From Pseudomonadota bacterium (GTDB lineage Bacteria > Pseudomonadota > Gammaproteobacteria > Acidiferrobacterales > Acidiferrobacteraceae), in assembly GCA_021794595.1 (NCBI GenBank), contig JAJYQN010000011.1:1-41105 (forward strand): 41,105 nucleotides of DNA, in the 5' to 3' direction. Both the position numbers and the translations under genes were made by a program. The notes under the pieces were generated by a model, which made no database searches, was not told the DNA's origin, and saw only the letters and a list, made by a program, of their open reading frames with translations. How positions within the stretch are numbered: the first letter of the stretch is position 1; each line of letters opens with the position of its first letter. Of the stretch, positions 680 through 34,462 are shown in pieces.

Positions 680-694
680 CTTGTATACTAGACC
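680..694 (-). promoter_or_regulatory. Element promoter motif, copy a (before the coiled-coil gene)
   Basis: Plus-strand CTTGTATACTAGACC. Read on the minus strand it contains a -10-like TATACA (682-687), 35 bases before the start codon at 647. It matches the consensus RTTRTATMCTAKACC built from six copies in this window. No clear -35 box at 16-18 bp was seen, unlike copies b and f, which could mean dependence on an activator. Confidence 0.5.
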
Positions 695-787
695 GGGTGG
701 GGGGAAAAGGCAAAGGCGGTGTGTTGGCGCACTCGGCGCCACGCCATACCACGGAAATCACGTCCTTTATCGCGCTATAGTACCGCC

Positions 788-1216
788 ATGCACCCTCCTC
801 TTCGTACCCAACTCGTCCAAGCCGCGCTTGCGTGGCAGCAAAGTACCGGTGTGGCGCCCGCGATCACCGCAGCGCTTTCGGAATATGATGCGGCGCACCT
901 CCTAGGTATGACGGATGAGGATTATCGCCGTTGCCGGATGGGCCAAACGGCTGTTACACAAGGCGCTGACTTTGCTTGGCAAGGCCTGCGCTATCAAGTC
1001 AAAGCGAACCGACCCAGCGGCTCGCCCGGGAGCCGTGTCACTCTGGTTCCAAAAGCTCGCAATTACGACTGGGACTCGTTGATCTGGGTTCTGTATGATA
1101 GGTTCTACGTAGTGCAGGAGGCGTGGTCGTGGGAGGTTGCTATGTACCGCGCAGCCTTTCATGCTATGAAACGCTTGTCCCCCGACGACTATCGTCGCGG
1201 AACGCGGCTGACATAG
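788..1216 (+). CDS. Small PD-(D/E)XK-like protein, possible nuclease
   Basis: Encodes 142 residues, read from ATG 788 (MHPPLRTQL); upstream in-frame sequence belongs to the intergenic region. The middle contains GADFAWQGLRYQVKANRPSG, an Asp followed by a strand ending in Gln-x-Lys, then a further Trp/Tyr-rich strand (DWDSLIWVLYD). This D...QxK layout is typical of minimal PD-(D/E)XK restriction-like folds, where Q can replace the usual Glu. The N-terminal half has a short helical region with an Asp/Glu/Arg cluster. It is transcribed divergently from the preceding coiled-coil gene and followed by an Mrr-like nuclease gene in the same direction, so a role in defence is plausible but inferred. 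The ribosome binding site is weak. Confidence 0.55.
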   Translation: MHPPLRTQLVQAALAWQQSTGVAPAITAALSEYDAAHLLGMTDEDYRRCRMGQTAVTQGADFAWQGLRYQVKANRPSGSPGSRVTLVPKARNYDWDSLIWVLYDRFYVVQEAWSWEVAMYRAAFHAMKRLSPDDYRRGTRLT

Positions 1217-1372
1217 GAAACATTCCAGTGTCCTGCTGCCGATCAGCAAGACCAGCATCGAATCAGCAGTGCGCCTCCTTACCTCACGCACGGCAGCGAA
1301 GGAATAAGACACAAATGGCCTTGGCCGAAAGACCAAAACAGCCTTTTAGGTCAACAATATAACAGAGGTTAA

Positions 1373-2563
1373 ATGTCTGAGAGTCCCTTAAATGCTGCAC
1401 TTCGGCACTTTGAAGCCGCGGAGGCAAATCTTATCAAGGCCGAAAAGCTCCTGGCTGATATCGAGGCTGCCATACCAAAAGGCATAGCCTTCGGTGAAAA
1501 TCCTGACTACGAATCTAACTGCCGGAACTTTGATGCCCTGATTGCCGCGCTTCCCAAGATTGGCGGATGGAAGCCGGAAATCACTCTCATGGAGTTGGAT
1601 GAAATTGCACAAAACCGATTGGATGCGCAGGAGGTCGGTGAAATCGAATGCATTGTGTCCGTCGAGCGCCAGATTGGGGAACCATTGCGGTTACTTCGAG
1701 AATATCGCTATCGCTTGAATCAGAAACGGCGCGAGCTTATCCGGGACACGCTCATAGAGCTCGTTGACGCTATTGACGCAAACCTTCGCAATCTCAGCAA
1801 ACTGCTGGAAGGTGACGAACCGTCGAATGAGGTTGTTACTGATGAAGAATTTGAGCAGTTAAAGGAAAATGTAGCCCAAATTGCAACGCTTCTAGGCAGC
1901 AGTGTTGCTAAGCCCGCCCGCTGGTCCGATCTTCATCGACACATGCATTTTGGAATGCTTGGCGATCTCCACGACATCATTGAGCACGACTGGCCAAGCG
2001 TCAAAGGCGGTTTGCGTAAGTCTATGTACGGCGAAAAGGAGCCGGTCCCAGTGGAAGTCGAGGACCTAGGTGCCTTAGTAAGCGCGAAGCCGAGAGGTCC
2101 GGTGGCAACAAGACTCAAGTGGGAAAGCCTAACCGACGAAGAATTTGAACGTCTGATTTTTGTTCTTATCTCGTCTGAGAGCGGCTACGAAAATCCAGAA
2201 TGGTTAATGAAAACCAATGCCCCTGACCGTGGACGCGATCTATCCGTGTATCGTGTTTATGCTGACCCATTGGGTGGGACACTTAGGCAACGGGTCATTA
2301 TTCAGTGCAAACATTGGCAGTCCAAGAGCATTGCACCAGCCAATATAGCGGTGCTTAAGGAACAAATGAAGCTTTGGGAGCCACCCAGAGTCGACATTCA
2401 CGTTATCGCAACCTCGGGGCGGTTTACATCGGATGCGGTTGCGGTCGTAGAAAAGCACAACCAATCCGATAGTGCCCTGCGAATTGAGATGTGGCCTGAA
2501 AGTCATTTGGAGCGCCTCCTTGCAAGCAGACCCGCTATTATTGCCGAGTTTGGGCTTCGATAA
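1373..2563 (+). CDS. Mrr-like restriction endonuclease domain protein
   Basis: Encodes 396 residues. The first 230 or so are helical and charged, with no known domain that I recognise. The C-terminal part (from about residue 240) begins with a W-x2-L-x3-EFERL helix, followed by APDRGRDLSVYR and VIIQCKHW. This is the E...D(x)n-QxK arrangement of the Mrr catalytic domain (PD-(D/E)XK fold), which cuts DNA, often modified DNA. A later segment (IHVIATSGRFTSDA) matches the usual strand after the active site. The gene ends just before an attC-like site and its ATG overlaps a perfect GTTRRRY heptamer (1368-1374), so it looks like an integron gene cassette. The N-terminal domain probably senses or binds a target; this is inference. 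Confidence 0.75.
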   Translation: MSESPLNAALRHFEAAEANLIKAEKLLADIEAAIPKGIAFGENPDYESNCRNFDALIAALPKIGGWKPEITLMELDEIAQNRLDAQEVGEIECIVSVERQIGEPLRLLREYRYRLNQKRRELIRDTLIELVDAIDANLRNLSKLLEGDEPSNEVVTDEEFEQLKENVAQIATLLGSSVAKPARWSDLHRHMHFGMLGDLHDIIEHDWPSVKGGLRKSMYGEKEPVPVEVEDLGALVSAKPRGPVATRLKWESLTDEEFERLIFVLISSESGYENPEWLMKTNAPDRGRDLSVYRVYADPLGGTLRQRVIIQCKHWQSKSIAPANIAVLKEQMKLWEPPRVDIHVIATSGRFTSDAVAVVEKHNQSDSALRIEMWPESHLERLLASRPAIIAEFGLR

Positions 2564-4224: not shown

Positions 4225-5526
4225 TTAGTCACGATTAGCCCCGCCGCTTTCTTCGTCCGGTCCCGGCAACGCGACTAGGCTCAATCCCTCTATCTCCTGC
4301 AATGTCTTTCCGGCTATGCCCTGCAGATCACCGTACATACCCACCGTGGCGCCCATTACACGCTCGATCTGCTCTTCGCGTTTGGCCCATTGCTTCATGA
4401 TGGCTTTGCGCTCCTTATCCAGGTCTTCCTGCATGGATGTGAAGGCCTCCACGATCGCTTCCACACGGTGCCGAAACCGGGGACCGGTCAGATATTGATA
4501 CACCATCTCCGTCTTAGTCTGCTGACCTTCGTTGACCTGTCGAGCCATGCTGACTTCCATCAACGAATGACGCATCACCGTGGCCACCGCCAGCGCTGCC
4601 CGCGGACTCGTGACCCAGACACCATCAATAACATCAAAGGTTTCGACGCCCTTCGGAAGAACCTGGCTCACAAGAATCGATATCTCCGCTTTGGCGGTTC
4701 GTTGATCATCACGGAGCTTAGCGAGCCAACCATCGCTCCAATTCTTGGTGCGCTTCGACTCCCAGAGGATGGCGCCACTCGGTTGGCCCGTCGGACTGAT
4801 GACCCTCTGCAGCACATCGCCGCCAAACTCACCTTTCGCCACGGGCTCAATCGAATCCAACGGGAACTTCACGCGTAACAGGTTTTCCAGATCCATCTCC
4901 TGCACTTCGCCTTGCAACTGCTGGGACCCCTGCTCGGCCCGACGCTTGAGATCCTCGATCTGTTTCTGCATCGCGAGAATGGTTTGTTCCTTTTCCATCA
5001 CCTTGAGTTTCTGTTCGTCCTCGGCCTCTTTCTTGGCTTCTTGCCGAGTCGCGGCCAGACCCTCCTGTATGCGCTTCTGGACGGTCAGTTCCAATTCCCG
5101 CTTGGCATCGTCTAGCTCGCGTTGCTTTCTTATCAGATCGGCCTGCGCCTTTTGCGCCTCCGCCAGTTTTACATCACGTACCTTGAGGACTTCCTGCAGT
5201 TCCGCCAACTCGTGCACTTTCGCGTCGAGCTCCGCGGCACTGGCAAGCTTGGCTTTCTTGGCCTCCTCGGCCATGATGCGGGCGCGCTCAGTCTTCAGTT
5301 CGGCGGCTACCTGGTCGGCAACCTGGCTATCGAGGGTGCGTTTCGCCTCCAAGAGCTGCTTTTCTTTCTCGTGGATACCCTGCTCACGCTGGGCCACTTC
5401 TGCGTCTTTTTGCAGGAGCTGCTGCTCATACTGCTGACGTGTGGCGGCAATGAGCGGTGCTGCGAGCGACTCCGTCAACCGAACTTCGGTTTGGCAATTC
5501 GGACATATGATTGTTGGTTCTGTCAT
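4225..5526 (-). CDS. DUF2130 family coiled-coil protein
   Basis: Encodes about 433 residues if read from ATG 5526 (MTEPTIICPNCQ); a GTG at 5562 would add 12. The N-terminus carries a Cys-x2-Cys half zinc ribbon (IICPNCQTEV) followed by LTESLAAPLI, then a long Glu/Lys/Gln-rich coiled coil to about residue 215. The C-terminal half (from EMDLENLLRVKFPLDSIEPV) is the conserved DUF2130 domain, including GAILWESKRTKNWSDGW, where E-S-K-x-T-K-N-W resembles the E-x-K end of a PD-(D/E)XK core. The family is widespread near restriction and defence genes, and its biochemical role is not established as far as I know. The helicase gene downstream is on the same strand but 200 bp away, so a shared transcript is not assured. 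Confidence 0.8.
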   Translation of the reverse strand: MTEPTIICPNCQTEVRLTESLAAPLIAATRQQYEQQLLQKDAEVAQREQGIHEKEKQLLEAKRTLDSQVADQVAAELKTERARIMAEEAKKAKLASAAELDAKVHELAELQEVLKVRDVKLAEAQKAQADLIRKQRELDDAKRELELTVQKRIQEGLAATRQEAKKEAEDEQKLKVMEKEQTILAMQKQIEDLKRRAEQGSQQLQGEVQEMDLENLLRVKFPLDSIEPVAKGEFGGDVLQRVISPTGQPSGAILWESKRTKNWSDGWLAKLRDDQRTAKAEISILVSQVLPKGVETFDVIDGVWVTSPRAALAVATVMRHSLMEVSMARQVNEGQQTKTEMVYQYLTGPRFRHRVEAIVEAFTSMQEDLDKERKAIMKQWAKREEQIERVMGATVGMYGDLQGIAGKTLQEIEGLSLVALPGPDEESGGANRD

Positions 5527-5766
5527 TGCCGCCCCCATGTATGCGACTTTTTTCTCTTTCACATTAGATGGTTTGTGTCGAGACCCCGCATCACCGTTTA
5601 CAAGCGCGCCGCCTCGGCACCGCGTCGCAAATACGGTACCTGCAGCGATGAGTCACACTCGCTACGATAAGCCTCACCGGCAATCTAGAGGGCGCCATAA
5701 CCGAGCGCTTCCGGCCGGGTGGGAGCGGCGTCTTCGGCGACGGATTCGGCAAATAAAGCCATGTTT

Positions 5767-8700
5767 TTAGCGCCGCTCACCAGATAACAACTCCCACACG
5801 TACTTGTAATCTGCTCCGGACAAATGAGTCTCGGTAGATCGTGCTCGCTCCCAGCCTACTGCATCTAATTCTTTAAGGAAACGTCGAGCTTGTTGCACAC
5901 CGACCTCCGAAATACTCTCGCCAACGCTGGTCCGGAATTCATCACCCAATCTCTCTGCTATGCTGCGAGGTACAGAGTTCATTCGCATCAATACCGCTTC
6001 CTCCGTTTTGACTCCGTGATAAACCATGGCGGGGAGTATATTGATACGGCGGCGATCGGCTGCCGGAAGCGACTCAAAGTCGATGCCAGATAGGCGGCTC
6101 AAGGCTGAAAGCCCCCAAGTCCCAGAGTTCACTAAATTCCGATATATCGCCTTGCAAGCCTCTGTAAGCGCCTTAGTTTGATTCTGGTCACCTTGGAAAA
6201 AATCCCGGGCAATTTCGTGAATGCTCTTGCCTCCAACCCACGCCTTTGTGATTTCGGCTATATACTGGTTTTCATTGCCCTGGCCTCCAAGGTCCTTCAG
6301 CGATTCCGCCAATTGGGGAACCCGGAGCATAACCCCGAACAAGTCAGCCATTCCCGTGCTCTTCCCAAACAGACTTTCAGGTGACCAATCGGCCGTGGTC
6401 AGCTTCCACTCCAACTGCCCCATCCCAACCAACGCTTTGCTTACACCTTCTGGAGAAAATCCGGTCATATCGGCAAGTTCCGCAATACCTGGGCTTTCAG
6501 CGAGACGCCGAGCGTAGTTCTTAGTCGCCTCCAATAGCTTGTCGGCCTTCGCTTTCCCCGCGGGGGAGCTCCGAAGCAAACCGTATCCGAAGGTATTCCG
6601 TAACAATTGTTCCGTATCTGCCAATACAGCGTCCAAGTTTTTCTTCTCACTCCACAGGTGGGCAACATAACAGCGAAAATCGTCCCACTGTTCTCCCTGG
6701 ATAACAGAATCTAGATCGTTCAGACGCCCCATCAGCTCTAGCTCGTTCAATAAATTCACCAACCGGGAGACCAACTCTCCTGTAGCCCGGCTCACATACT
6801 CGATTATTTCCTCGGGTTTATCGCCAGCAGCTAACCCAACCACGCCGACGCTATCGTGGTTCATTCGCCCGGCACGGCCTGCCAAGTTCCAGAAATCGCG
6901 AGGCAACATCTCCTTTGACCGGTATCCCTGCGGCACAAAGCGAGAAGCGAGGAATACAGAGGAAACCGGGAAATTGACTCCCTGGGCTATCGTCGTGGTT
7001 GCACACAGAACGCGCAGCTTCCCTTCTTCCGCCAACCATTCGATCAACGCACGGACCTCATCCGAAAGCCCAGCATGGTGCATGCCAACACCGCGAACCA
7101 ACATTTCGACTAACTCAAAGTCCGGACTGACTTCTGTTTTCAGAAAATCCTGGACCAATTGAATCTCATTAGGGACTGGAGACAACGGGGCAAACGTCTC
7201 ACAGATCTGACGCGCCATAGTCCAGACTGAATTGATATTGTGGGCTACGGCGATACTCGTACCTCGACTTGAGAATACGGTTGCCATGGCGGCAGTTTGT
7301 AAGCTCTTGTTAAGCTTAGACTTAGTCACCTTGAGCGGCCTCACGCCACCGACCTTATGCGTGCCATCCAGATGAATCGTGCGAGGCGTGGTCGTGAGAG
7401 TCTTATACATCAACTGCCAGCCACCCCTAACAGAAATATCTTCCTCAGCCTGATATATCCCCACAATACGTTCATTCGGCTTCCAGGGGGTTGTGCCAAA
7501 ACTGATGGCCCGTCCAGCGTTCACGTCTTGTGCCAGCCATTGAGCAAGCGTCTCAGCTTTTTCGACATAAGGCATGAGAAGCAAAAAGTTGGCCGACGTG
7601 CAACCACGCTTGATGGTGGCCAACAACAGTTCGATCCGAAGACCTCGCGTCTCGTCCTCAATATTGTGAGCCTCATCCATGACCACCAAGGCTAAAGGCC
7701 GAGGCACCTTATTATTCCGGATCACCAATTGTAGTTTTTCCGGGGTCGCGACAAGAACATCGAAAGAACTTCCATTGCTCGTTTTTGTGAGCAGGTCTTC
7801 CTCAAATGCATCGATCTCCACTGCGCCAGTCAGTTGTTCAACTTGTACTCCAATAGGTTCGAAGTCCCGCCGTAGGCGCCGGGTAATCTGAGCGGTCAGC
7901 GCACGTGTAGGTGCAACATAGGCAACCCAGCCCTTTTCGGCATCGAACTGATTAAGCGCCTGCAAAATCCGGAACTGCGCCAGTAGTGTTTTCCCACCAG
8001 ATGTGGGCATATCGACCACAACTGCTGTAGCCGCCTGATCGAGGAGCCCCTGTTCCTGCAGAGCAGCGCGCTGGGGAGGTAGCAACTCAAACATGGCCTG
8101 CTGCTTGGTAACCTCACGTACAAATCTCGTGACGCGGGAATTCACAGCGCGGGCCACCCACCAGACCGAACCAGAAACCATTTGACGTGCCGTCGCATGA
8201 AGCCAGCGCGCCAGCACTTCCAGCTGCGCATCCGCGCTCGCCGTGGCGGCGTCGATCGCTGCCTCGAAATGCTTGTCCAGCAAAGATGCGATGCCTGCCG
8301 GTTCTCCTTGCAACATATACTTGGCGAGCAATTCGGTACCTTTCGCCCAGTGATACAGGCTGATCAACCGTAGGGCCATGACACGATCTTCAGTATTCGA
8401 GCCGCTGTCCAATACACCTGATTCGTAGGTCTTCTGGTCTTCCCGAAGCCCGGCAATGATCTCCCGGACCCGGTCTAGGTCGTCCCAACGCTTCTTGCGA
8501 AAAAGCCGGACCCAGCACTCAAACAGACGATAGGTCAGACGGTGGTGCCATGTGGCGTCAGCAGCGGATGGAACCTGAATTGCCTCCTGATTCTCGTTGT
8601 ACCAGCGCCGCAAGTCCGACCAACGGTCTCCACAGTAGGCGAGTGCCGACAGGTGGAGGATGTGCAAAATCCGCTCATCCTCTTTTTCTGGTAGATCGAA

Positions 8701-9012
8701 CAAACGACGAATTTCAAAGGTCCGCCAAGCACCAGCCGCACATTGCTCGCGCAACTCTTTCGCCTCGGCGGAGAAATTGAGAAAGGCGCCCAATCCTTCT
8801 ATCGCGGCCATTTCATATGCCATGGCTAAACGGCGGAGCAGGTCATGTTCTAGGTCGCTTTCTGGAAAATCAATCTGCATCTGCTGACCGACCGCTTTCT
8901 TGACCAGCCAAGTACTTACGATGCTCAGGCCACGGTCACGTTCAGTCTCGCCGACGGCAAGAACGGCCCAATGCTCGTCCACCAGATGAAGGGAAGCATG
9001 GGTCACGTTCAT
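5767..9012 (-). CDS. hamB: Hachiman-like defence helicase (HamB-like, Ski2-type SF2)
   Basis: Encodes 1081 residues. After a helical N-terminal region of about 320 residues come the SF2 helicase motifs: Walker A MPTSGGKT (about 335-342), motif Ia VAPTRAL, motif II DEAH (about 446-449), a motif IV-V region with GVGMHHAGLS and CATTTIAQGVNFP (about 642-682), and motif VI AGRAGR (about 711-716). HHAGL together with TTTIAQGVN is the signature of Ski2-like helicases, the type found in HamB. The C-terminal 350 residues are helical, as in winged-helix and ratchet domains. Its start overlaps the end of the HamA-like gene by 4 bp (ATGA). In the Hachiman antiphage system HamB senses and travels on DNA and releases HamA nuclease activity. 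The assignment to Hachiman rests on this pairing; a different helicase-nuclease system is possible. Confidence 0.7.
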   Translation of the reverse strand: MNVTHASLHLVDEHWAVLAVGETERDRGLSIVSTWLVKKAVGQQMQIDFPESDLEHDLLRRLAMAYEMAAIEGLGAFLNFSAEAKELREQCAAGAWRTFEIRRLFDLPEKEDERILHILHLSALAYCGDRWSDLRRWYNENQEAIQVPSAADATWHHRLTYRLFECWVRLFRKKRWDDLDRVREIIAGLREDQKTYESGVLDSGSNTEDRVMALRLISLYHWAKGTELLAKYMLQGEPAGIASLLDKHFEAAIDAATASADAQLEVLARWLHATARQMVSGSVWWVARAVNSRVTRFVREVTKQQAMFELLPPQRAALQEQGLLDQAATAVVVDMPTSGGKTLLAQFRILQALNQFDAEKGWVAYVAPTRALTAQITRRLRRDFEPIGVQVEQLTGAVEIDAFEEDLLTKTSNGSSFDVLVATPEKLQLVIRNNKVPRPLALVVMDEAHNIEDETRGLRIELLLATIKRGCTSANFLLLMPYVEKAETLAQWLAQDVNAGRAISFGTTPWKPNERIVGIYQAEEDISVRGGWQLMYKTLTTTPRTIHLDGTHKVGGVRPLKVTKSKLNKSLQTAAMATVFSSRGTSIAVAHNINSVWTMARQICETFAPLSPVPNEIQLVQDFLKTEVSPDFELVEMLVRGVGMHHAGLSDEVRALIEWLAEEGKLRVLCATTTIAQGVNFPVSSVFLASRFVPQGYRSKEMLPRDFWNLAGRAGRMNHDSVGVVGLAAGDKPEEIIEYVSRATGELVSRLVNLLNELELMGRLNDLDSVIQGEQWDDFRCYVAHLWSEKKNLDAVLADTEQLLRNTFGYGLLRSSPAGKAKADKLLEATKNYARRLAESPGIAELADMTGFSPEGVSKALVGMGQLEWKLTTADWSPESLFGKSTGMADLFGVMLRVPQLAESLKDLGGQGNENQYIAEITKAWVGGKSIHEIARDFFQGDQNQTKALTEACKAIYRNLVNSGTWGLSALSRLSGIDFESLPAADRRRINILPAMVYHGVKTEEAVLMRMNSVPRSIAERLGDEFRTSVGESISEVGVQQARRFLKELDAVGWERARSTETHLSGADYKYVWELLSGERR

Positions 9013-10539: not shown

Positions 10540-11853
10540 TTAAACCACACCCGCCCGCGGTTTCGCTTGGGAATCGACTGAAGCCCCCGTGAGCGCCGCC
10601 AGTCGCTCGATCGGCACGGCTTGGTGCAGTACGCGACGATCCGCCTCGGAGACGCTGCACTCCTTGAAGATGCGATCGCCATGTTGGGCCATACCGGCCC
10701 AGGTCGCATAAATCAGGGCCTGCACCTCCTGTAGGGGCCGATTCATCAACCGGGCCACCGCCGGCACCAGATGCGGCGTCAGGGCCTGTGTGGGATTGGC
10801 AAAGCCGCACAAACGAGTCGCAAAATCCACGTTGCCCGCCACGGGGACGAGATCGTAAGCGGGCGTCAGATGCCAGGCGTTGCGCGCATCGAGCAGCATC
10901 TCGAAATTCCCCATATGATTATCCGCGACCCCGACGCCGGCCATGAAGGCCAAGCGCCGAATCAATTCATCCTGATCACTCCCCTCTACGCCGACGGCCT
11001 TTAGGGCGCGGTCGATATCCCGAAAATCGGCCGTAGACCCATACGCCCCAGTGTTATCGATGCCGGTCAAAGTTTTCAGGCTGATCCGATGCGCGCGATG
11101 CGTGCTCGATCGGTCATAGCGGCTCACCAACAACACCTCCTCGCCGGATTCCGGAAGCATAATGACCCGACTCTCAGGAACCGATAACCCCGCCTCGGCC
11201 GCAAGCCGCAGGCTCGCATGCTCAACCCGCGCCAGACTCTGGTACGGATCGTCGGGCATATTGAATTTTGCGATCCAGTAGCGCCCCTCCAGGTGCACGG
11301 CGGCCTTAGGGCGGGCCCCGCCGATACTGGTCAAGCCATAAAAATTGCGCTTATCCAGTAATTGGGACAATTCTCGCAGCTGGAAACGAATCATGCGCTC
11401 CCGCACGACCTCCAGATATGACATGCCGTCGATATACCGCTCCGGTGTCTCATGATGCGCGGTCTCAAACAGCAGTCCGGACTGCACGCGCGTCCCAAAC
11501 CAGGCAAGCTTGGCGAGATCATCAAACCGGCCAAACGCCGGAAAGTGGCGCGTCAACAAGCTCAAACCGAAATGGCCCGGCAGCATGTCGCGAAAGACCC
11601 CAAAGAGCGCCTCACCGTTTTCCGGCATGAACTGCGCCCCCGGCGGCTTGCCCCGGTAGTCGAGATGCAGAGGATCGAGGGGCGGGCCGTCATAATCCGG
11701 AAAATACGTAAACCGCCTCCGGGCGTGACCCTGCGCCGACAGGTAGCCCACCGGTACCCAACGCCGCCCTCTCGCATCCGGGGCCCGAAGGGGATCCCAG
11801 AGGCTGACGGTGAGGCCTTCCACCGCTTCCACGGGGCGGACCGGAGGGCTCAC
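10540..11853 (-). CDS. hipA: HipA family serine/threonine kinase toxin
   Basis: Encodes 437 residues from GTG 11853, chosen because GTGA overlaps the stop of hipB; a longer frame into hipB is an artefact. The N-terminal part (about 1-110) is the HipA subdomain 1 (LTVSLWDPLRA ... LPGHFGLSLL). The kinase core follows with a Gly-rich segment LTSIGGARPKAAV, a Lys-bearing strand YWIAKFNMP, the catalytic loop GVADNHMGNFEML (Asp and Asn conserved; the frequent Lys before Asn is Gly here) and AYDLVPV, which supplies the metal-binding Asp. HipA kinases phosphorylate glutamyl-tRNA synthetase or related targets and halt growth. Paired with hipB upstream, it is probably an addiction module stabilising the element. 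Confidence 0.85.
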   Translation of the reverse strand: MSPPVRPVEAVEGLTVSLWDPLRAPDARGRRWVPVGYLSAQGHARRRFTYFPDYDGPPLDPLHLDYRGKPPGAQFMPENGEALFGVFRDMLPGHFGLSLLTRHFPAFGRFDDLAKLAWFGTRVQSGLLFETAHHETPERYIDGMSYLEVVRERMIRFQLRELSQLLDKRNFYGLTSIGGARPKAAVHLEGRYWIAKFNMPDDPYQSLARVEHASLRLAAEAGLSVPESRVIMLPESGEEVLLVSRYDRSSTHRAHRISLKTLTGIDNTGAYGSTADFRDIDRALKAVGVEGSDQDELIRRLAFMAGVGVADNHMGNFEMLLDARNAWHLTPAYDLVPVAGNVDFATRLCGFANPTQALTPHLVPAVARLMNRPLQEVQALIYATWAGMAQHGDRIFKECSVSEADRRVLHQAVPIERLAALTGASVDSQAKPRAGVV

Positions 11854-12335
11854 GAGAGTTTGGGGCCAGATAAGGTAAAAAGATCGTCGAGATCCGGGCC
11901 GCCATCGTCTACGGCCTTGCCTTCGTTGGGGATGTGGTTTTTTCCTCTCTGAATGATGGTCGCGGTGGCGGCCTCGAGATCCTTCACGGCATCCCCATCC
12001 ATCCGTGTCTGCCAATCCTGATGCGCGGCGTACGCACGCGCCGCGTCATAACGAGCAATTGCCTCGCCCGGATCGGCCGCCTCGCGCACTGCGTCCAATA
12101 CGGTCAGATTCTGGGTCTTGTCCCGATAGAGTCGACGCCAGGCGTTTGCCCAATAGCCTATGGGGATGCGGGGATCCCCGGACTCCATGCGCACGTAGGT
12201 GCTCCGCGACACCCCCAGCCGTTTGGCCATCTCGGCCTGCGTACAGCGCAACAACTGTTGCCGATAGATCTTGAGCGACTGGCCGAGACTCTCTAAAACC
12301 CGCTCGCTATCGCCTTCCCCCACTCCTGACACCAT
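11850..12335 (-). CDS. hipB: HipB-like antitoxin with XRE-type helix-turn-helix
   Basis: Encodes 161 residues from ATG 12335 (MVSGVGEG); the longer frame to 12605 runs into the preceding gene. Residues about 15-70 form an XRE helix-turn-helix: SLGQSLKIYRQQLLRCTQAEMAKRLGVSRSTYVRMESGDP. The C-terminal half (AVREAADPGEAIARYDAARAYA onward) is longer than in E. coli HipB and acidic at the end. It should bind its own promoter and neutralise HipA. The two genes overlap by 4 bp (GTGA). The upstream 110 bp carries an inverted repeat and direct repeats suited to autoregulation. Confidence 0.75.
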   Translation of the reverse strand: MVSGVGEGDSERVLESLGQSLKIYRQQLLRCTQAEMAKRLGVSRSTYVRMESGDPRIPIGYWANAWRRLYRDKTQNLTVLDAVREAADPGEAIARYDAARAYAAHQDWQTRMDGDAVKDLEAATATIIQRGKNHIPNEGKAVDDGGPDLDDLFTLSGPKLS

Positions 12336-12375
12336 CGCATCATTCCTGAAACCTGATCTTGTCAGTGTAGCCCAG

Positions 12376-12415
12376 GAGAAACAATTATGCGAGATAATGC
12401 GAAGTGGTGTTTCTC
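12376..12415. promoter_or_regulatory. Candidate HipB operator
   Basis: Between the polyvalent gene and hipB. Perfect 8-bp inverted repeats GAGAAACA (12376-12383) and TGTTTCTC (12408-12415) enclose two direct copies of ATGCGA (12387-12392 and 12397-12402), spaced one helical turn apart. A minus-strand CATAAT (within 12383-12392) could be the -10 box of hipBA, so binding here would block transcription. This is a sequence-based inference. Confidence 0.55.
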
Positions 12416-12445
12416 GTGAGACATGCGCCCAGGGATACGAGCCGG

Positions 12446-15744: not shown

Positions 15745-15788
15745 GCCGTCATCTCTCGCAGTCGTTCTATGGCACGGATAGATATGAT

Positions 15789-19405: not shown

Positions 19406-19440
19406 AGTGCGACTCCTTATATGGGACGGATATTAACTCT

Positions 19441-19539: not shown

Positions 19540-20295
19540 TTAGGGCGAGGGGGTCTGTGGTCCCTCATGCCTTTGGAAAGGCTTGGTCGATTTTTGAGGT
19601 TCGAGGGTGATTGTCTGATAGATAGACAGTCGTTCGTGGGCCCATGCCAAGGCGTCCTCCAGGGCCGGCTTTATCGGTGCTGCAATCGCCGCCCATTCCC
19701 GCTGCGTGGCGGGCGAAGTGCTTAACCGTTCCAGCGCTGCCCTAATGTCATCAAACCGAGTTTTCAATAAACCCGCCAGGCGATCCCTGGGAACGCTCTG
19801 GGGAAGATGCTGTTCAATAAACATCCAATCAAACACATCCCGAGAGGTCAACGCCCACCCTCGGTAAAACAGCTTCTTAGCAAGCACCTCGGCTACGGGC
19901 TCAAGCGCAAAACGTGTATCTGGATGGGACTCTGCCGGCAAACCCAACAAAGACATACCCACAATAAAATCAATCTCTCCGTCTGGCAAACGGAGCTTAA
20001 TGACATTGGCCTCTTCACTGTACCCGGAAATGACACCCTCAAATCGGTCATTCAGGCGCGGCGAGAGATAACCAATCCATTGGGGGTCGCGAATAAAAAG
20101 GTCTATGTCATGACTGATGCGATGCTGAAGGGCCAGCATGAGGCGCGTCCCGCCGCCTAAAAGCGGCGACATGCGGGTACCTGCCTGGGCCTCCGCATCC
20201 ACAACCAGCGTATGAGCAAAGGCGGCTAGTCGCCGCCAAGAGCCCTGTTGACACCAGTCCGCGACATCGGGGACGGGCTGCGCTGGATTAATCAT
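19540..20295 (-). CDS. AbiEii/AbiGii-type nucleotidyltransferase toxin
   Basis: Encodes 251 residues from ATG 20295 (MINPAQPVPDVADW); a longer frame upstream overlaps the partner gene. LLGGGTRLMLALQHRISHDIDLFI holds the Gly-Gly-Gly motif and the His-Asp-x-Asp metal site of the AbiEii nucleotidyltransferase superfamily; a third acidic position lies in GEIDFIVGM. Further conserved blocks are ALEPVAEVLAKKLFYRG and SRDVFDWMFI, where the Lys and Asp are typical of the family. Such proteins act as toxins in type IV toxin-antitoxin pairs, modifying tRNA or other targets with nucleotides. Its partner overlaps it by 8 bp, but does not look like the usual AbiEi antitoxin. Confidence 0.8.
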   Translation of the reverse strand: MINPAQPVPDVADWCQQGSWRRLAAFAHTLVVDAEAQAGTRMSPLLGGGTRLMLALQHRISHDIDLFIRDPQWIGYLSPRLNDRFEGVISGYSEEANVIKLRLPDGEIDFIVGMSLLGLPAESHPDTRFALEPVAEVLAKKLFYRGWALTSRDVFDWMFIEQHLPQSVPRDRLAGLLKTRFDDIRAALERLSTSPATQREWAAIAAPIKPALEDALAWAHERLSIYQTITLEPQKSTKPFQRHEGPQTPSP

Positions 20296-20608
20296 CAGGC
20301 GTCCTCGCTTGCTGAACAAGAGTTTCCCATGCGGCGATACGCGCTGACCCCAAGGCGACGCTTTCATGATAAAGCGAGAAAAGTGCGGGCATCCCGGCAT
20401 GAACCTCTCGTCCGGCACGCAAGATCAAGGCCGGCCCATGCTCCTGAAAAAGGCGAGACACAATCGCCTGGCCTGTCGTGTTCGGAACCGAGGCCACCGT
20501 CCCGGAAACCAGCGCCCGCTCGATATCCTCCGGGGTCACAATGGGGCCGTAAGGAGCATTCAAATGTGTGGCGATCAGCGCACAGGATGGTAGGGTTTGC
20601 ATGGACAT
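20288..20608 (-). CDS. Small partner of the AbiEii-like gene, possible antitoxin
   Basis: Encodes about 106 residues from ATG 20608, chosen because AGGGGA lies nine bases upstream; a GTG at 20635 would sit inside the promoter. It reads MSMQTLPSCALIATHLNAPYGPIVTPEDI ... SLYHESVALGSARIAAW. It is too short for AbiEi and shows no clear winged helix. The 8-bp overlap with the nucleotidyltransferase gene shows translational coupling in the order small gene then toxin, the common order for antitoxin and toxin. Function is inferred from position alone. Confidence 0.55.
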   Translation of the reverse strand: MSMQTLPSCALIATHLNAPYGPIVTPEDIERALVSGTVASVPNTTGQAIVSRLFQEHGPALILRAGREVHAGMPALFSLYHESVALGSARIAAWETLVQQARTPDD

Positions 20609-23264: not shown

Positions 23265-23497
23265 GGAGTCGGGCTCGAGGAAGCCCTGAGGGCTTGTAAC
23301 CACCGTGGGACAGAGGGGTGGGGCGTGGCGTGCGCTGGCAAGCCCACTGCCGCGGACGATGGCATGGAGGCAGGAGGACTGGCACCCGCATGACCGAGAA
23401 GCCAGCCCCCGCAAAACACCACGACGAACCCCACGATCCTCAAGCGCCGAACCCAACGGCCTTCGATCTGCGCCATCGGTCGTGAATCGATCGTCAT
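23261..23497 (-). CDS. Small single-span membrane protein in the dotL operon
   Basis: Encodes 78 residues, MTIDSRPMAQIEGRWVRRL followed by one membrane segment (IVGFVVVFCGGWLLG, about residues 22-36) and a Pro/Ser/Ala-rich tail that would lie in the periplasm by the positive-inside rule. Its start overlaps icmT (ATGA, 23494-23497) and its stop overlaps dotL (ATGA, 23261-23264), so it is certainly translated with both. I do not recognise a homologue. Its position suggests a small subunit or stabiliser of the coupling complex. Confidence 0.65.
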   Translation of the reverse strand: MTIDSRPMAQIEGRWVRRLRIVGFVVVFCGGWLLGHAGASPPASMPSSAAVGLPAHATPHPSVPRWLQALRASSSPTP

Positions 23498-23811
23498 ATC
23501 TCCTCCTCGTCCTGATCGACAATCCAAAACGCCCCGCGCGCCGGGATCTGATCCCAAAACGGATCCGCCGGGCCTGAGACGAAACGCCCGTGCACAAGCC
23601 AATCCAGTACGCGCCCCCACGCCACCCCGGGGTCGAACCCCATCCGTGCCAGAATCGCGAACAGAAGAGTGGCCAGCAAACACACCAAAGCCAGCACCCA
23701 GGACGTAAAGTGCATGATAAAAAAGAGCCAGGGGAAGACGGCGCGCGCATCGACGCCAAACACCTGAGGCGTCAGGCCGCCATCCCGCCAGTTCTCCGGG
23801 GCCTTATTCAT
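23494..23811 (-). CDS. icmT: IcmT/TraK-like inner-membrane protein of the I-type secretion system
   Basis: Encodes 105 residues from ATG 23811. The N-terminus NWRDGGLTPQVFGVDARAVFPWLFF matches the IcmT signature (WRDxxxxPxxFGIDARAxxP), followed by a hydrophobic stretch (IMHFTSWVLALVCLLATLLFAILA) that crosses the membrane, then a short domain and an acidic end. IcmT is a small component of Dot/Icm-type and IncI conjugation machines, essential for transfer in the systems where it was tested. Both ends overlap neighbouring genes by ATGA. Confidence 0.8.
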   Translation of the reverse strand: MNKAPENWRDGGLTPQVFGVDARAVFPWLFFIMHFTSWVLALVCLLATLLFAILARMGFDPGVAWGRVLDWLVHGRFVSGPADPFWDQIPARGAFWIVDQDEEEI

Positions 23812-24953: not shown

Positions 24954-25485
24954 CGAGAACCCCCCATTGCGCCCCCAAACGCTTCAGGAGTTGGTCGCGG
25001 TACGCATGCGCCAAGGAAGGCGTTGTCGAATGATACCAACCGATTGCCCGCCACAGATTTCCGTCCGCCCGCAGACGTTTCATTGCCAAAATGCCTCCGG
25101 CCACTGCGACGTTCAAGCAACCATTATCGGCAAGCATACGGCCCGTGATTCCTAAGGGCTGCAACACAGGCAGCCAAACGCTATTGATCTGCATAGGGCC
25201 ATAATCGGCCGTACCGTTCGGATCCGGTACGATCTGTCCCGGCGCCCCACCCTCATTGGCCCAAATCGCAGGCAACACCAAAGGCGGGAAGCCAAAATGC
25301 CGAGCAACAACCGCAAAGCAGGCCGGTGTGGGGGCCGTCACCGGATAGGGCCGACGCGGGAAGGCATGCGATAAGCCCGGCACGGCGCCGACAACGATCA
25401 CCACCATCCCCGCCAACACGGAGGATAGACGTCCTGTTCTATACTTTCCACTGGCCACCTTTTTTGCGGGTATGCACATGGCCAT
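24943..25485 (-). CDS. Lytic transglycosylase (VirB1-like, SLT domain)
   Basis: Encodes up to 180 residues; the second Met (25479) has better spacing to AAGGGG than the first. A hydrophobic segment at about 22-42 (SVLAGMVVIVVGAVPGLSHA) works as signal peptide or anchor. The SLT domain follows: CFAVVARHFGFPPLVLPAIWANEGG with the catalytic Glu, DYGPMQINSVWLP with the conserved Gly-Pro-Met-Gln-Ile-Asn, NVAVAGGILAMKRL, and AIGWYHS. It opens peptidoglycan locally so that the secretion apparatus can be assembled. Position in the dotM-dotL operon supports that role. Confidence 0.85.
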   Translation of the reverse strand: MAMCIPAKKVASGKYRTGRLSSVLAGMVVIVVGAVPGLSHAFPRRPYPVTAPTPACFAVVARHFGFPPLVLPAIWANEGGAPGQIVPDPNGTADYGPMQINSVWLPVLQPLGITGRMLADNGCLNVAVAGGILAMKRLRADGNLWRAIGWYHSTTPSLAHAYRDQLLKRLGAQWGVLDGH

Positions 25486-26149: not shown

Positions 26150-26828
26150 GCGGTTTCCTCCGGTTCACGGCGCCCTTGGCCTTTGGGGCACGTTTCCCAC
26201 GCGTCGCGGCGCGGGCCTCTGTCTTCTGGGGTTTTGTGGCCTTAGGGGCCGGAGTGCGATTCCGTTTGCGTTGAGCGCTCGGACGCCAGGTCCCCGCATC
26301 ACTGACAAAAGAGAGTTCTCGAACGTGCATTTCCGCTTCCGCAAAGGCCTCCAGGTTCTTCAGGGCCTCTACTGGTCCCCGGACACGGATGTCCTGGGAA
26401 ATGGCGAACAAGAGACGTGCCATCAGGGCAGTGGGCTGGATGTAGGGCTGAAAGGCCTGGGTTGGAAAGGTCGCATTGCGCCCCAGGAGCAAGGCGAAAC
26501 GCCGTTTACTGACACGCAAGTTGTCCTCCTCACACCCGGCATTGAGCTGCTCAAATACCTCCTTGGGGTGTGGGGCGGGTGGAATCAGCTGTCGGGCAAT
26601 GTCCGGAAAACGCAAGTAGTAACGCGTCAGGAGCGCCAAGGCGGGATCCGCCACGGAGGTGCGTCCGCTAGGCGCGGTCACGGTACGTCGCGCAGCCCCC
26701 CGCCCCAGACCCATCAGGTAATACAGATCCATGGTGCTCACACCCAGCACGTTCTGAAGATAATCCAGAACCGCCGGTTTGATTTCCTCGTCAGCGGGCC
26801 ATCCGGGCGACGGAGGAGATTTTGTCAT
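26142..26828 (-). CDS. Unidentified protein with helix-turn-helix-like N-terminus
   Basis: Encodes 228 residues. Residues about 15-75 (VLDYLQNVLGVSTMDLYYLMGLGRGAARRTV ... ADPALALLTRYYLRFPDI) look like a degenerate XRE helix-turn-helix of the kind seen in mobile-element proteins. The middle is helical, and the last 45 residues are extremely basic (Lys/Arg/Ala/Pro tail), which suggests nucleic-acid binding. It starts within the stop of the HEPN gene (ATGA, 26825-26828). It could regulate the operon or act as a DNA-binding transfer factor; both are inference. Confidence 0.6.
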   Translation of the reverse strand: MTKSPPSPGWPADEEIKPAVLDYLQNVLGVSTMDLYYLMGLGRGAARRTVTAPSGRTSVADPALALLTRYYLRFPDIARQLIPPAPHPKEVFEQLNAGCEEDNLRVSKRRFALLLGRNATFPTQAFQPYIQPTALMARLLFAISQDIRVRGPVEALKNLEAFAEAEMHVRELSFVSDAGTWRPSAQRKRNRTPAPKATKPQKTEARAATRGKRAPKAKGAVNRRKPHG

Positions 26829-27256
26829 GGTGTCATTCCGTGGTTGTTATTATTCGAGTCCTTCGGCATGAAGTGGGCTCGCATGGTGGTCACGAAGGCT
26901 TCGGCTTGTTTTACCATCTCCTCCGCATCGCCCCGCTCCACGGAGTCGCCCGTGTAATCGGCAACCAAACGGATTTCCTCCGCGCGGTTCAAAAGTCGCC
27001 CCATGTCTTTGGAGATCGGCCCGTTCTTGATCAGATGGTCACCAAAGGCACTGATAAGACCGCGGTGGGTCTTGCCAATGTCAGGCTTAACAGGAGCGTT
27101 GGAGGCCAGTAAGGCCGCACGAGCTGCGTCGAACATGGCGTAGTAGGCGCGATTGCAGGCGCCGTCCACATCGCCAAAATCGAGCAGAGCGCGAGCCGAC
27201 GCACAGGCTTGATCCGCTTTAGTCATCAAAATTTGCGGCGTCAATACACCGTTCAC
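26825..27256 (-). CDS. HEPN-domain protein (UPF0332-like), partner of MNT
   Basis: Encodes 143 residues from GTG 27256, chosen because GTGA overlaps the stop of the MNT gene. The central motif NRAYYAMFDAARAALL is the conserved HEPN helix (R-x-Y-Y-A-x-F-x-A-A), followed by THRGLISAFGDHLIKNG and EIRLVADY. The position that is His in many HEPN nucleases is Asp here (AMFDA). In MNT-HEPN modules the HEPN protein is a ribonuclease toxin or a structural partner, and the MNT protein neutralises it by nucleotidylation. Here the pair heads the conjugation operon rather than standing alone. Confidence 0.75.
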   Translation of the reverse strand: MNGVLTPQILMTKADQACASARALLDFGDVDGACNRAYYAMFDAARAALLASNAPVKPDIGKTHRGLISAFGDHLIKNGPISKDMGRLLNRAEEIRLVADYTGDSVERGDAEEMVKQAEAFVTTMRAHFMPKDSNNNNHGMTP

Positions 27257-27594
27257 AGACGAACCCCCTCTTGGGCGATATTCCGGAGCAAGGCGGGATT
27301 GGAATAGCTCTCCGGGTGCTCCCATTCGTCAAGCCATATCGGCAGCGGCGAGATGGCGATGCCGGTTTCCAGCAGCACATCGTAAGCCACATCCGCCATC
27401 GTGAGCTTGGTTGGCAAGAATCGTTGATGCACACCACTTAGGAGGACTGCGACATCGGCATCGCTATCCGGGTGGTGCGTGCCACGCGCGCGACTGCCAT
27501 AGACAATGGCGCCCGCCATCTCGTAGCGACTGGCTATCAAGGCGAGAAAGCGTCGGACGGCCGCTTCTGTATTTGGGTCAAGGCGCTTCTCCAT
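27253..27594 (-). CDS. MNT-domain nucleotidyltransferase (MntA-like antitoxin)
   Basis: Encodes 113 residues from ATG 27594, eight bases after GGAAGG; GTG 27600 is a less well spaced alternative. The motif GAIVYGSRARGTHHPDSDADVAVLL is the minimal nucleotidyltransferase signature: Gly-Ser, then Asp-x-Asp metal ligands. The remainder is VAYDVLLETGIAISPLPIWLDEW and a short tail. Family members act on the HEPN partner by adding AMP near the active site. It is the first gene of the long operon under promoter copy e. Confidence 0.8.
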   Translation of the reverse strand: MEKRLDPNTEAAVRRFLALIASRYEMAGAIVYGSRARGTHHPDSDADVAVLLSGVHQRFLPTKLTMADVAYDVLLETGIAISPLPIWLDEWEHPESYSNPALLRNIAQEGVRL

Positions 27595-27627
27595 TTCCAC
27601 ACCCTTCCTTGTCGGTGTTTTATAGAC

Positions 27628-27642
27628 ATTCTATCCTATACC
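27628..27642 (-). promoter_or_regulatory. Element promoter motif, copy e (before the MNT-HEPN-dotM-dotL operon)
   Basis: Plus-strand ATTCTATCCTATACC matches the consensus at nearly all positions. On the minus strand it gives a -10 TAGAAT (27628-27633), 34 bases before the start codon at 27594. No good -35 box was found at 16-18 bp. The site lies between the stop of the topoisomerase gene (27660) and the MNT gene, so the two conjugation operons may be partly independent. Confidence 0.55.
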
Positions 27643-32082: not shown

Positions 32083-32085
32083 CGC

Positions 32086-32514: not shown

Positions 32515-33048
32515 TCACAAGAAACTTGTCGTCAACGAGGCGAGCGTGGCCCCGATATTGGCGGCCAAGGCCCCGGCCACCACGAAGGTAAGGCCCGTCC
32601 AGAACGGATGGCGCTCCTGCCCACCGCCTTCGGCCACCGAACGCCAGACATACAGTCCGCGAATGAAGGCAAACCACCCCAGCAACACGATGAGATTGGT
32701 CAAGGCCTGTTGCACGGCCTGCGCCATGGGCACACTGGCGCTGACGGGCGAAATCGACCCATACCCATTGAACGTCGGACCGAAAAACGAGTGGGACACC
32801 ATGGCCATGGACATCGCGATCGACGACAACATGGCGCCGAAATACAACCCGCCGATCACACCGCCCCATGAATCCCGGCCGCCTGACTGACCGACGCGGG
32901 TCGCCTTGACTATGGCGTGTAGTACCAGCATAAGGCCCACCAAGCCACAGGCATCTGGCACGATGCGTAAAAGCGAATCGGCCACATTGCCAATCGCCAT
33001 CCATGCGGTGGCACTCGAAGCCGGGCCCGTATAAGCGGAAATCGTCAT
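32515..33048 (-). CDS. dotE: DotE/IcmC-like polytopic membrane protein (TraR-like)
   Basis: Encodes 177 residues with four membrane segments: about 28-45 (IVPDACGLVGLMLVLHAIV), 63-85, 112-130 (ALTNLIVLLGWFAFIRGLY) and 150-170 (FWTGLTFVVAGALAANIGATL). The end RHPFWTGLTFVVAGALAANI matches the C-terminus of the IcmC/DotE/DotV family. It is an inner-membrane component of the I-type channel. It lies 6 bp downstream of dotF and 42 bp upstream of dotP in one operon. Confidence 0.7.
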   Translation of the reverse strand: MTISAYTGPASSATAWMAIGNVADSLLRIVPDACGLVGLMLVLHAIVKATRVGQSGGRDSWGGVIGGLYFGAMLSSIAMSMAMVSHSFFGPTFNGYGSISPVSASVPMAQAVQQALTNLIVLLGWFAFIRGLYVWRSVAEGGGQERHPFWTGLTFVVAGALAANIGATLASLTTSFL

Positions 33049-33054
33049 GGGTTC

Positions 33055-34401
33055 TCAGGGTCCCGCCTCCCGGAGATGCGCCCCGTTGCTCAAAACCAGC
33101 AATGGGGGATTGGCCTGTATGGACCGTACGGACAGTTTCGGCGTCCCCGGAATCGGGTTACCCCGGAAGATCCGCACCAGCGCGCCATTAGGCACCTCAA
33201 TCCAGGCAGCATGACCAATGATGCCGACCAATTGCACCGGGGGAACCAACGGCTTCGGTTTGGGTTTAGGCTTGGGCGAAGCCAGAGGACGCACGGTGAT
33301 ACGCGGCGCATGGTGGACAAGCCAGGTGAGGTGCGCAATCTCCCGGCCCTGCCGGGCGATCACCACGGCGTCCCGGACGGATGTCGTCTGTTCTCTCTGG
33401 ATCGCAGCGGCGAGCGCACTCTCTTTTCGGGTGATCTGCCCCACAAGAAATGTGATCCCCTGGAATGAGCGCTCGAGACGGGCCAGTTGGCTGGCGATCG
33501 AGCGCGAAGCGGCCGGGGCCGGTGACGGCGTTACCGCGGGCGAACTTGAGGCGAAAAGGGATCCCGCAGCTGCGGTTGTCGATACCGCCGCTGTGTCATT
33601 CTGCGGTGAAGAGACAGGATTCGGTGCGGACCCTGGCGTGCCGAACGCGGCCGTAGGCGACAGAGGCGTCGACGCCGGCGGTTGCAGCGATTCACCAGGC
33701 ATCCCCCGCGCGCCCTGGGGTGTCGCCGGAGCGGTGGGCTGGCGTGGGGGTAGCGGCGTATTCGTCACACCCGGTGGCGCCGGCAAGGGATGGATCATCG
33801 GTTCGCGTGGGGGCTGGGCGCTTTTCAGAAAAGCCACCGTCCCGGCGCCCGCCAATAGCGTCACGGCACCGGCAATCACCGCCACCAAGGGCCAGGACAA
33901 ACGGCGGGGCTGCGCGGTTACGGACTCCGTCACACGCGGACCGGAGACACCAGGCCCGCGTTCTTGCTCCCCCTCCTCTTCGTCCACCGGGCCCCTATCG
34001 GCCACTTCAGGAGAGGGAATGATCTTTTGCGGCGCCCGCACGCTCTGCGCAGAACGCCCGGGTACTGCGGGCGCAGGCCCCTTGGGTGCAGCGGATTTCA
34101 CGGGGGCAAGGGAAACCGGGGCCACGGGAGACAGTCGAGTCTGGGCCGACTGATGAGACCCCGTGAAATCCGTCTGGGTATCAGCGAGACTGACCCCCTC
34201 TTCTTCGTCTGGCGGAATTTCCGCTTCGGCTGCGGCAAAACGCGGGGGCGGCACCCCCTCTGCGGGAAGCGCCTCCTCCAACGCTTCACCATCGAGATCC
34301 GCATTGTACTGATCTGCGAACCCCGCGATCTCCATACGGTCATTCTCTTCGTCTTCGCCTGGGAGCTTGGCACCCAGAGTCTGCCACGGGTCTGCCACCA
34401 T
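33055..34401 (-). CDS. dotF: DotF/IcmG-like inner-membrane protein (TraP-like)
   Basis: Encodes 448 residues. An acidic cytoplasmic N-terminus (about 1-165) is followed by one membrane segment (LVAVIAGAVTLLAGAGTVAFL, about 172-192), a long Pro/Ser/Thr/Ala-rich linker, a coiled coil (about 305-365: SQLARLERSFQGITFLVGQI) and a compact beta domain with VQLVGIIGHAAWIEVPNGAL and IFRGNPIPGTPKLSV. The order is that of DotF/IcmG, which links the inner membrane to the core and regulates secretion. It is longer than Legionella DotF because of the linker. It is the first gene of its operon, behind promoter copy f. A generic TonB- or VirB10-like protein is a less likely reading. Confidence 0.7.
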   Translation of the reverse strand: MVADPWQTLGAKLPGEDEENDRMEIAGFADQYNADLDGEALEEALPAEGVPPPRFAAAEAEIPPDEEEGVSLADTQTDFTGSHQSAQTRLSPVAPVSLAPVKSAAPKGPAPAVPGRSAQSVRAPQKIIPSPEVADRGPVDEEEGEQERGPGVSGPRVTESVTAQPRRLSWPLVAVIAGAVTLLAGAGTVAFLKSAQPPREPMIHPLPAPPGVTNTPLPPRQPTAPATPQGARGMPGESLQPPASTPLSPTAAFGTPGSAPNPVSSPQNDTAAVSTTAAAGSLFASSSPAVTPSPAPAASRSIASQLARLERSFQGITFLVGQITRKESALAAAIQREQTTSVRDAVVIARQGREIAHLTWLVHHAPRITVRPLASPKPKPKPKPLVPPVQLVGIIGHAAWIEVPNGALVRIFRGNPIPGTPKLSVRSIQANPPLLVLSNGAHLREAGP

Positions 34402-34432
34402 CAGTCTTTCACCGTGAAGGGATATACGGTGT

Positions 34433-34462
34433 GTTATATCCTAGACCATATGGGCCAGTCAA
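34433..34462 (-). promoter_or_regulatory. Element promoter motif, copy f, with -35 box (dotF operon)
   Basis: Plus-strand GTTATATCCTAGACC (34433-34447). On the minus strand: -35 TTGACT (34457-34462), an 18-bp spacer and -10 TATAAC (34433-34438), 32 bases before the dotF start. It is among the best copies. A partial second copy, GTTATATACC, lies at about 34476-34485, one possible additional binding site about four helical turns away. Confidence 0.65.

Follow-up and report, generated by a model that had tools for sequence, protein, structure and literature searches.

Several operons of a conjugative element appear to share a promoter motif, and the question raised by this locus is which sequence, and which protein, could place them under common control. 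The locus is contig C142 of a 2.92-Mb draft genome (153 contigs; own genome, G000) of the Acidiferrobacteraceae; the entire contig of 41,105 nucleotides was analyzed and is referred to as the window. The element is integrated and conjugative, and its transfer system is of the I type (IncI/Dot-Icm-like). The initial annotation had claimed six operon starts in the window, at 680, 15789, 19441, 20627, 27628 and 34433, that share the 15-mer RTTRTATMCTAKACC. Four of them matched with at most one mismatch (none at 34433 and one each at 680, 15789 and 27628), compared with 0.02 matches expected, and none of 100 shuffled sequences reached four. The sites at 19441 and 20627 showed five mismatches each. 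With up to three mismatches, the excess was slight (seven matches versus 2.9 expected, a number reached in 3 of 100 shuffles). The signal is genuine, but it is carried by four sites and not by six. These four are all oriented alike, as had been claimed.

The 22-bp dyad and its distribution

On sequence evidence, the true unit of the motif is a 22-bp dyad, GKATANRAY-N8-TATMC, which lies on the minus strand in the window and would stretch between the -10 box and roughly position +7. Its right half, TATMC, and a site at 25423 had been overlooked. In aligned orthologous upstream regions, the core persisted in diverged intergenic DNA, and TATCC or TATAC recurred 8 bp past the -10-like nonamer. The exact dyad was found in the window at 15776, 19428, 25423 and 34420, always on the minus strand, and was absent from 100 shuffles. 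The annotated site at 19441 is lost as a 15-mer but sits on a genuine dyad, at 19428 to 19449. The segment CTAKACC, which had been singled out as conserved, reads GGTMTAG on the promoter strand, and relatives carry GGCATAG, TACATAG, AACAAAG or TGCGAAG there.

The exact 22-mer was counted in 60 genomes. The own genome contained 12 copies, on contigs C14, C63, C96, C100, C137 and C142, and G008 contained eight, all at 71.6 to 160 kb of its contig C2; reversed controls gave none in either genome. Four copies were found in G005, and the other 57 genomes together gave 29 versus 17 reversed controls. Read on the promoter strand, the 15-mer is GGTMTAGKATAYAAY, and at up to two mismatches it did not stand out in the own genome (20 matches versus 20 reversed controls). 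At up to one mismatch, the 14 genomes of the genus gave 13 matches, namely seven in the own genome, four in G008 (all on contig C2 at 71.6 to 160 kb) and one each in G005 and G001; the reversed control gave four, all outside G000 and G008. Among these genomes, exact copies of the 12-bp core TATAGGATRTAA were confined to G000 (four), G005 (one) and G008 (two), with two reversed controls.

In addition to these pattern counts, we scored the genomes with a 34-column sequence profile trained on 20 sites; its first pass comprised the best 150 of 186 candidates for G000 and the best 150 of 170 for G008. At E <=10, the 14 genomes gave 31 matches, of which 17 were in G000, 10 in G008 and four in G005, and the other 11 genomes gave none. 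All 27 matches of the own genome and G008 were on element contigs, the ten of G008 again within C2:71.6-160 kb. Twenty of the 31 matches were training sites, and near copies of training sites (C100:2881, G008 159901 and G008 137055) were among the 11 others. A match in G005:C112, which has no adjoining element gene, is probably due to chance. Across 57 genomes of the order, the same three genomes again had matches, and seven others showed one or two weak matches each (best E, 0.039), which is the chance level at E <=1. Using a 22-column position weight matrix (PWM) at a score of at least 20, we found five sites in the window and 10 in the 94.6-kb G008 element (seven in the training set and three outside it), compared with none in 20 local shuffles. 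Finally, a relaxed two-block scan, with one mismatch permitted in each block, located sites at matching places in both elements: window 25423 and G008 C2:145707, C96:10077 and G008 81694, C96:19894 and G008 91495, and C96:53317 and G008 119949.

Altogether, a single operator-like dyad was found at several element promoters and not in the rest of the genome. Some observations weigh against so clean a picture. The PWM and the profile were trained on sites from the same genomes; the relaxed scan also gave unmatched sites, such as window 16165 on the plus strand; and exact 22-mers occurred at G010:C44:10510, with no element gene found in the surrounding 12 kb, and at G006:C93. Within the window, the right half is weak at 27620 and absent at 680. 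Variation of CTAKACC in relatives, which had been named beforehand as a sign against a regulon, does occur; the other such sign, a motif equally frequent elsewhere, was not seen, as the rest of the genomes showed no comparable rate. The proposal of a bound regulator and one programme is nevertheless backed by the sequences themselves, in which the dyad is restricted to the element family and kept at orthologous promoters. The operator sequence is apparently new: no description of it was found in the listed titles and abstract openings of papers on the regulation of integrative and conjugative elements (ICEs), mating-pair formation type I (MPF-I) systems and shufflons, on AlpA and excisionases, and on IncI1 regulators, and the papers listed for the motif letters look unrelated.

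Promoter anatomy and the proposed mode of control

The conservation footprint was examined over ten orthologous groups with 27 sites; pairs at least 93% identical, the C100:2885/G008:127717 pair and the 680 group were left out. Conservation peaked three times, at a block 16 to 21 bp upstream of the dyad, at the GKATA/-10 block and at TATMC. Both half-sites were near-invariant except for the K and M columns and stood a fixed distance apart, and the middle diverged, with the 6 bp preceding TATMC poorly conserved. The upstream block is the -35: at the ten G008 sites, the best hexamer lay at 16 to 18 bp and gave 35 of 60 matches to TTGACA, compared with a shuffle mean of 23.1 (0 of 5,000 as high). 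No clear -35 was present in three of the ten groups (27620, 25423 and 72035). The -10 hexamers, such as TATAAC, TACAAT and TAGAAT, fall within the left half. Because the -35 is conserved, the sites can be read as promoters; they are of the sigma-70 type, with a predicted operator over the -10 and the start. Annotated -35 hexamers were confirmed at 34433 (TTGACT, spacing 18) and 15789 (TTGACG, spacing 16) and weakly at 19441 (TTGCTG, spacing 18). The claimed distance to the start codons was roughly right, as four window operons have 18, 25, 22 and 31 bp between the 3' end of the dyad and the ATG.

With transcription expected to start about 7 bp past the -10, TATMC would lie at about +3 to +7. 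We know of no sigma contact at this position. Its location bears on the possibility that no regulator is involved and that the dyad simply reflects core-promoter conservation or recognition by an alternative sigma factor. The left half does contain the -10 hexamer, and the promoters of one element may resemble each other; however, TATMC is within the transcribed region and nearly as conserved as the left half, and in the C96:53317/G008:119949 pair both halves are retained although the -10 hexamer changes. The -35 boxes, where present, are of the sigma-70 type, and neither they nor the -10 boxes are unlike sigma-70 elements. We consider this explanation improbable. The unusual sigma preference suggested initially is not needed either, given the -35 conserved at 16 to 18 bp (with three of ten groups lacking a clear one) and the ordinary -10 hexamers. 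An RNA hairpin in the leader was rejected by position only, the left half being at the -10 box and upstream of the expected start.

We consider it fairly probable that the dyad is a KorA-like, element-wide operator at which an element-encoded dimeric repressor would act. At least 10 promoters in the G008 element and five in the window share the dyad. An element-encoded DNA-binding protein would, as a dimer, contact both half-sites, whose centres are 17 bp apart, and block RNA polymerase at every dyad promoter, that of its own gene included. The transfer, pilus, polyvalent-protein and accessory operons would thereby be held low jointly and released jointly. The block is expected because the dyad spans the -10 to about +7. 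One geometric feature weighs against this scheme: a simple dimer would usually contact half-sites separated by whole helical turns, and 17 bp does not correspond to such a distance. Alternatively, the bound protein may be an activator or act in both ways, which seems unlikely to us. Several -35 elements are weak (27620, 72035 and 25423 groups), as would suit an activator, and RdfS, an excisionase from a different ICE, represses its own promoter and activates certain others, according to the part of the report consulted (PMC11963761); however, a site spanning the -10 to about +7 is where a dimer would be expected to block polymerase.

Candidate regulators

The leftmost gene of the element, which adjoins an att-like sequence, encodes a 120-amino-acid (aa) protein with a helix-turn-helix (HTH) domain, HTH_17. 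The operator was present in this gene's own promoter in all three copies (C63, C96 and G008), which are 86 to 88% identical. Close orthologues (86 to 100% identity) were found only in G000 and G008 among 371 genomes. Two 37%-identical proteins, at G005:C173 and G015:C163, are encoded in otherwise different DNA, and the dyad is upstream of both; at G005:C173 it is GGATAGAACACATATTGTATCC, flanked by additional inverted repeats. At the other 10 of 15 HTH_17 loci, the relaxed pattern gave no dyad before the gene, and one of these loci (G254) has almost no upstream DNA. The dyad-associated proteins share S-x-[KR]-x-[IL]-[YF]-x-L (SPKSIYHL and SARQLFNL) within the likely recognition helix, and the others compared differ by eye. 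This association is suggestive and points to the HTH_17 protein as a candidate binder. We tentatively propose, with somewhat less than even confidence, that this left-end, excisionase-like HTH_17 protein of 120 aa is the regulator.

Several observations weigh against this assignment. The domain matches, to PF12728, TIGR01764 and phrog_66, are weak, hovering around the Pfam gathering score and under the NCBIfam cut-off: two copies reached 27.5 and 27.2 bits against the PF12728 gathering score of 27, the third reached 26.4, just under it, and the one copy scanned with TIGR01764 reached 23.2 bits, below the cut-off of 28.8. G005 carries element operators (C171 and C101) and the 113-aa gene described below, yet no close HTH_17 orthologue and only the 37% homologue, despite a 93% complete assembly (220 contigs). 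In the own genome, the gene lies on C63 and C96, and no HTH_17 match was obtained on the window contig. At two G001 loci, a relaxed GTATA-N12-TATAC dyad is more than 1 kb from the HTH_17 gene, and G000:C15 shows a weak match of 12.2 bits near its HTH_17 gene.

No HTH_17 protein was found in the plasmids or viral contigs searched, and the broader genome-contig search gave two distant Erythrobacter loci only. The G015:C163 locus (L106, 1485 to 3537) and its G005:C173 equivalent (L107) form a small, mobile-looking unit, in which the HTH_17 gene has two upstream dyads. The unit also carries a RelE/HTH pair 89 to 96% identical to one within the G008 element; at G015:C163, inspection by eye also suggested a replication-like protein and a small protein containing a sigma-region-4-like stretch. 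A bolder version of the proposal, which we regard as rather doubtful, is that an excisionase-family HTH_17 protein has become a sequence-specific master repressor of the ICE family, with one strict 22-bp operator through which the operons for transfer, pilus, toxin-like and polyvalent proteins are jointly silenced, and that the G005:C173 and G015:C163 loci, with their diverged copy of the protein and the same operator, could read or interfere with the switch.

The same operator could also serve another regulator, either the 113-aa protein encoded divergently from the 15776 operator (15839 to 16180, plus strand; family unassigned by scans) or an unrecognized element protein. Within the genus, the distribution of the 113-aa gene coincides with that of the exact 12-bp core: both occur in G000 (with two copies of the gene), G005 and G008 and in no other genome. 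The gene is 82 to 87% identical in G008, G005 and C14. Its start lies some 40 bp from the operator, where a divergent regulator is classically located, and it occurs in G005, where no close HTH_17 is found. However, the protein matched no family in Pfam, PHROGs or NCBIfam, and at the HTH_17 loci G005:C173 and G015:C163, the operator stands in different DNA. A single-sequence structure model showed strands and two helices, and at a mean predicted local distance difference test score (pLDDT) of 45.5 it was too poor to judge. We regard this explanation as unlikely. Directly behind the 113-aa gene in G008 (C2:159470-159503; L022, 19471 to 19504) is a large palindrome, GGTATCGGATAT...ATATCCGATACC, built from the half-site word of the dyad.

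Two further candidates were rejected. The G008 element contains divergent genes for a CI-like protein (HTH_3 and peptidase S24) and a P22-Cro-like protein at C2:107284-108182 (L024, 7285 to 8183), a phage-type, possibly SOS-linked switch inside a conjugative element. A 65% CI homologue is present in C96, with one stop inside the match. However, the CI/Cro intergenic region has palindromes of its own, two of them TAAGCATGCTTA-like, with no GGATA, GTATA or TATAC and one lone TATCC, and G010 retains a CI homologue of 73% identity (perhaps broken, as the match contains two stops) yet showed no profile match and only the exact 22-mer at C44:10510. Binding of the dyad by this pair is therefore very improbable; as speculation, the pair may provide a DNA-damage input upstream of the switch. 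HipB was considered because the Escherichia coli HipB operator, TATCCN8GGATA in the part of the source used (PMC3376134), shares the half-site word and because HipB- and HipA-like genes lie in the window at 10540 to 12605. The half-site order and spacing differ, however (GKATA-N12-TATMC here), and the 400 bp around the window hipB start contain one TATCC and no GGATA. The window hipBA was also unmatched among the genes called in the compared 160-kb G008 stretch, though the sites are conserved there. We give HipB practically no credence as the binder.

Genes behind the operators, the element and its parallels

The operator at 34420 to 34441 (minus strand), GGATATAAC-N8-TATCC, is an exact match with counterparts in C137, C100 and G008. 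Its promoter has the -10 TATAAC at 34433 to 34438 and the -35 TTGACT at 34457 to 34462 (minus strand). A second, weaker dyad copy lies 43 bp upstream of the main one, at 34463 to 34484 (minus strand; PWM score, 15.3); its left half, GTATATAA, is conserved in C137 and G008, and its right half has diverged. Operon extents, here and below, are deduced from gene order. The first gene (33055 to 34401, minus strand) encodes a 448-aa membrane protein, which is proline-rich with one hydrophobic stretch by eye and has a 60% identical counterpart in G008. The operon also contains a TraQ-like gene (32515 to 33048, minus strand; 90% identical in G008), which matches the IncI1 TraQ model NF033883 with an E value of 4e-10, under the curated cut-off, and an HNH gene; topoisomerase III is further along in the same direction.

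At 27620 to 27641 (minus strand) is a near copy with the weak right half TATAA, which differs by one base in G008 and has an orthologue in G005:C101. It is at the promoter of an MNT nucleotidyltransferase gene (PF01909; 27253 to 27594, minus strand), followed by a HEPN gene (26825 to 27325), with transfer genes behind. The site that had been overlooked, at 25423 to 25444 (minus strand), is an exact match and precedes a gene with the likely start ATG 25407 by reading, then a DotM-like gene and the gene for a TrbC-like coupling protein (20772 to 23759, minus strand; NF041447 TrbC, E value of 1e-80, under the curated cut-off). The operator at 19428 to 19449 (minus strand), GTATACAAT-N8-TATCC, is an exact match with counterparts in G008 and G005, and behind it is a 269-aa gene (18596 to 19405, minus strand). 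The exact match at 15776 to 15797 (minus strand) precedes the genes for a 119-aa protein and a 979-aa LPD1 polyvalent protein (12446 to 15744, minus strand). The -10 TATAAC is at 15789 to 15794 and the -35 TTGACG at 15811 to 15816 (minus strand), and from the promoter core, 16 bases are invariant in four aligned sequences. In G008, operators additionally precede the PilS/shufflon pilus genes and the HTH_17 gene.

The annotated site at 680 to 694 (minus strand) holds as a 15-mer but is only a promoter variant, GTCTAGTATACAAG, that lacks the TATMC half. C14 and G008 have related sequences, and GTATACAAG is kept in the three copies, all lacking the right half; its membership in the regulon is doubtful. 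The site at 20627, which had tied the AbiEii pair to the regulon, was dropped, with five mismatches to the 15-mer and no PWM match, and no PWM match of at least 9 bits was found upstream of AbiEii (19540 to 20418).

The related element on G008:C2 has a coupling protein 82% identical to that of the window and the gene order of the window in reverse. Homologues place contigs C14, C96, C100, C137 and C63 of the own genome in the same element family, with at least two copies. TraQ-like, TrbC-like, DotM-like, PilS, shufflon PilV and phage-integrase-like genes are present. The TraQ-like and TrbC-like proteins scored 39.9 of 80 bits and 271.9 of 800 bits against the IncI1 equivalogs, and by these scores they are distant relatives and not IncI1 members. 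By reading, the att-like sequence at the left end resembles a tRNA 3' end; ARAGORN found no tRNA gene at this integration site. Two direct copies of such an att sequence, at G008:C2:42716 and 71415 (28.7 kb apart), suggest tandem or accreted elements. The broader genome-contig search gave no relative of the coupling protein, and the viral contigs gave one match to the polyvalent protein (42%), with no PWM score above 8 there. The HNH protein matched in 56 of 369 genomes of the class; outside the own genome, these relatives were only distant, at most 42% identical among the matches listed.

Other features of these elements were also observed. Window 1373 to 2563 and 4225 to 9012 encode an Mrr-type endonuclease, a DUF2130 protein and a 1,081-aa DEAD-box helicase. 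Together they may form a defence cluster, and they were unmatched in the compared G008 stretch. At 34667 to 35771, a SecB-like protein (PF02556) is beside a 212-aa protein without a Pfam family, and the two are possibly a chaperone-linked toxin-antitoxin set. The palindrome TGTTCCACGTGGAACA, which we presume to resemble a ParB parS site, occurs at about G008:C2 96758 (L033), G000:C96 21371 and G010:C52 1045, with one base changed in C96 (TGTTCCACGTGGCACA). A weak dyad left half (GGATATAAC or GGATACAAC) immediately adjoins this type of palindrome in all three genomes.

The proposed control scheme resembles the plasmid networks of KorA (IncP-1 RK2) and ArdK (IncW R388). In the parts of the reports consulted, the KorA operator overlaps the -10 of korAp, KorA's own promoter (PMC2680271), and ArdK represses five R388 promoters (PMC9723621). 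A small HTH repressor, here a candidate, and one operator placed over the core promoter at several promoters would be common to all. The operator sequence and spacing differ: GKATA-N12-TATMC here versus GTTTAGCTAAAC or TTGACA direct repeats. The present element is also integrated and has an I-type transfer system, and Pfam scans of selected element proteins, a subset of the total, gave no KorA/TrbA family match. RdfS, likewise a small HTH protein and a winged-HTH excisionase, heads a transfer operon, coordinates excision with transfer, and binds over its own -35/-10 to autoregulate, and no consensus motif is apparent for it, in the portion of the paper used (PMC11963761). In contrast, a strict 22-bp dyad is repeated here over at least 10 promoters, with HTH_17 as the candidate binder. 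The gene content is like that of the IncI1 (R64-like) transfer region with its thin pilus and shufflon, in the TraQ-like, TrbC-like, DotM-like, PilS, PilV and integrase-like genes; unlike IncI1, the element is integrated beside the tRNA-3'-end-like sequence, and its TraQ and TrbC matches are under the curated cut-offs.

The operator is usable as a marker that gathers scattered contigs of one element family, here C14, C63, C96, C100, C137 and C142. Because its sequence is delimited at base resolution and a candidate regulator can be named, it offers a testable single control point for this family of conjugative elements. If the HTH_17 protein is the regulator, it would be an example of an excisionase-type protein that represses globally through a strict recognition sequence, unlike RdfS.

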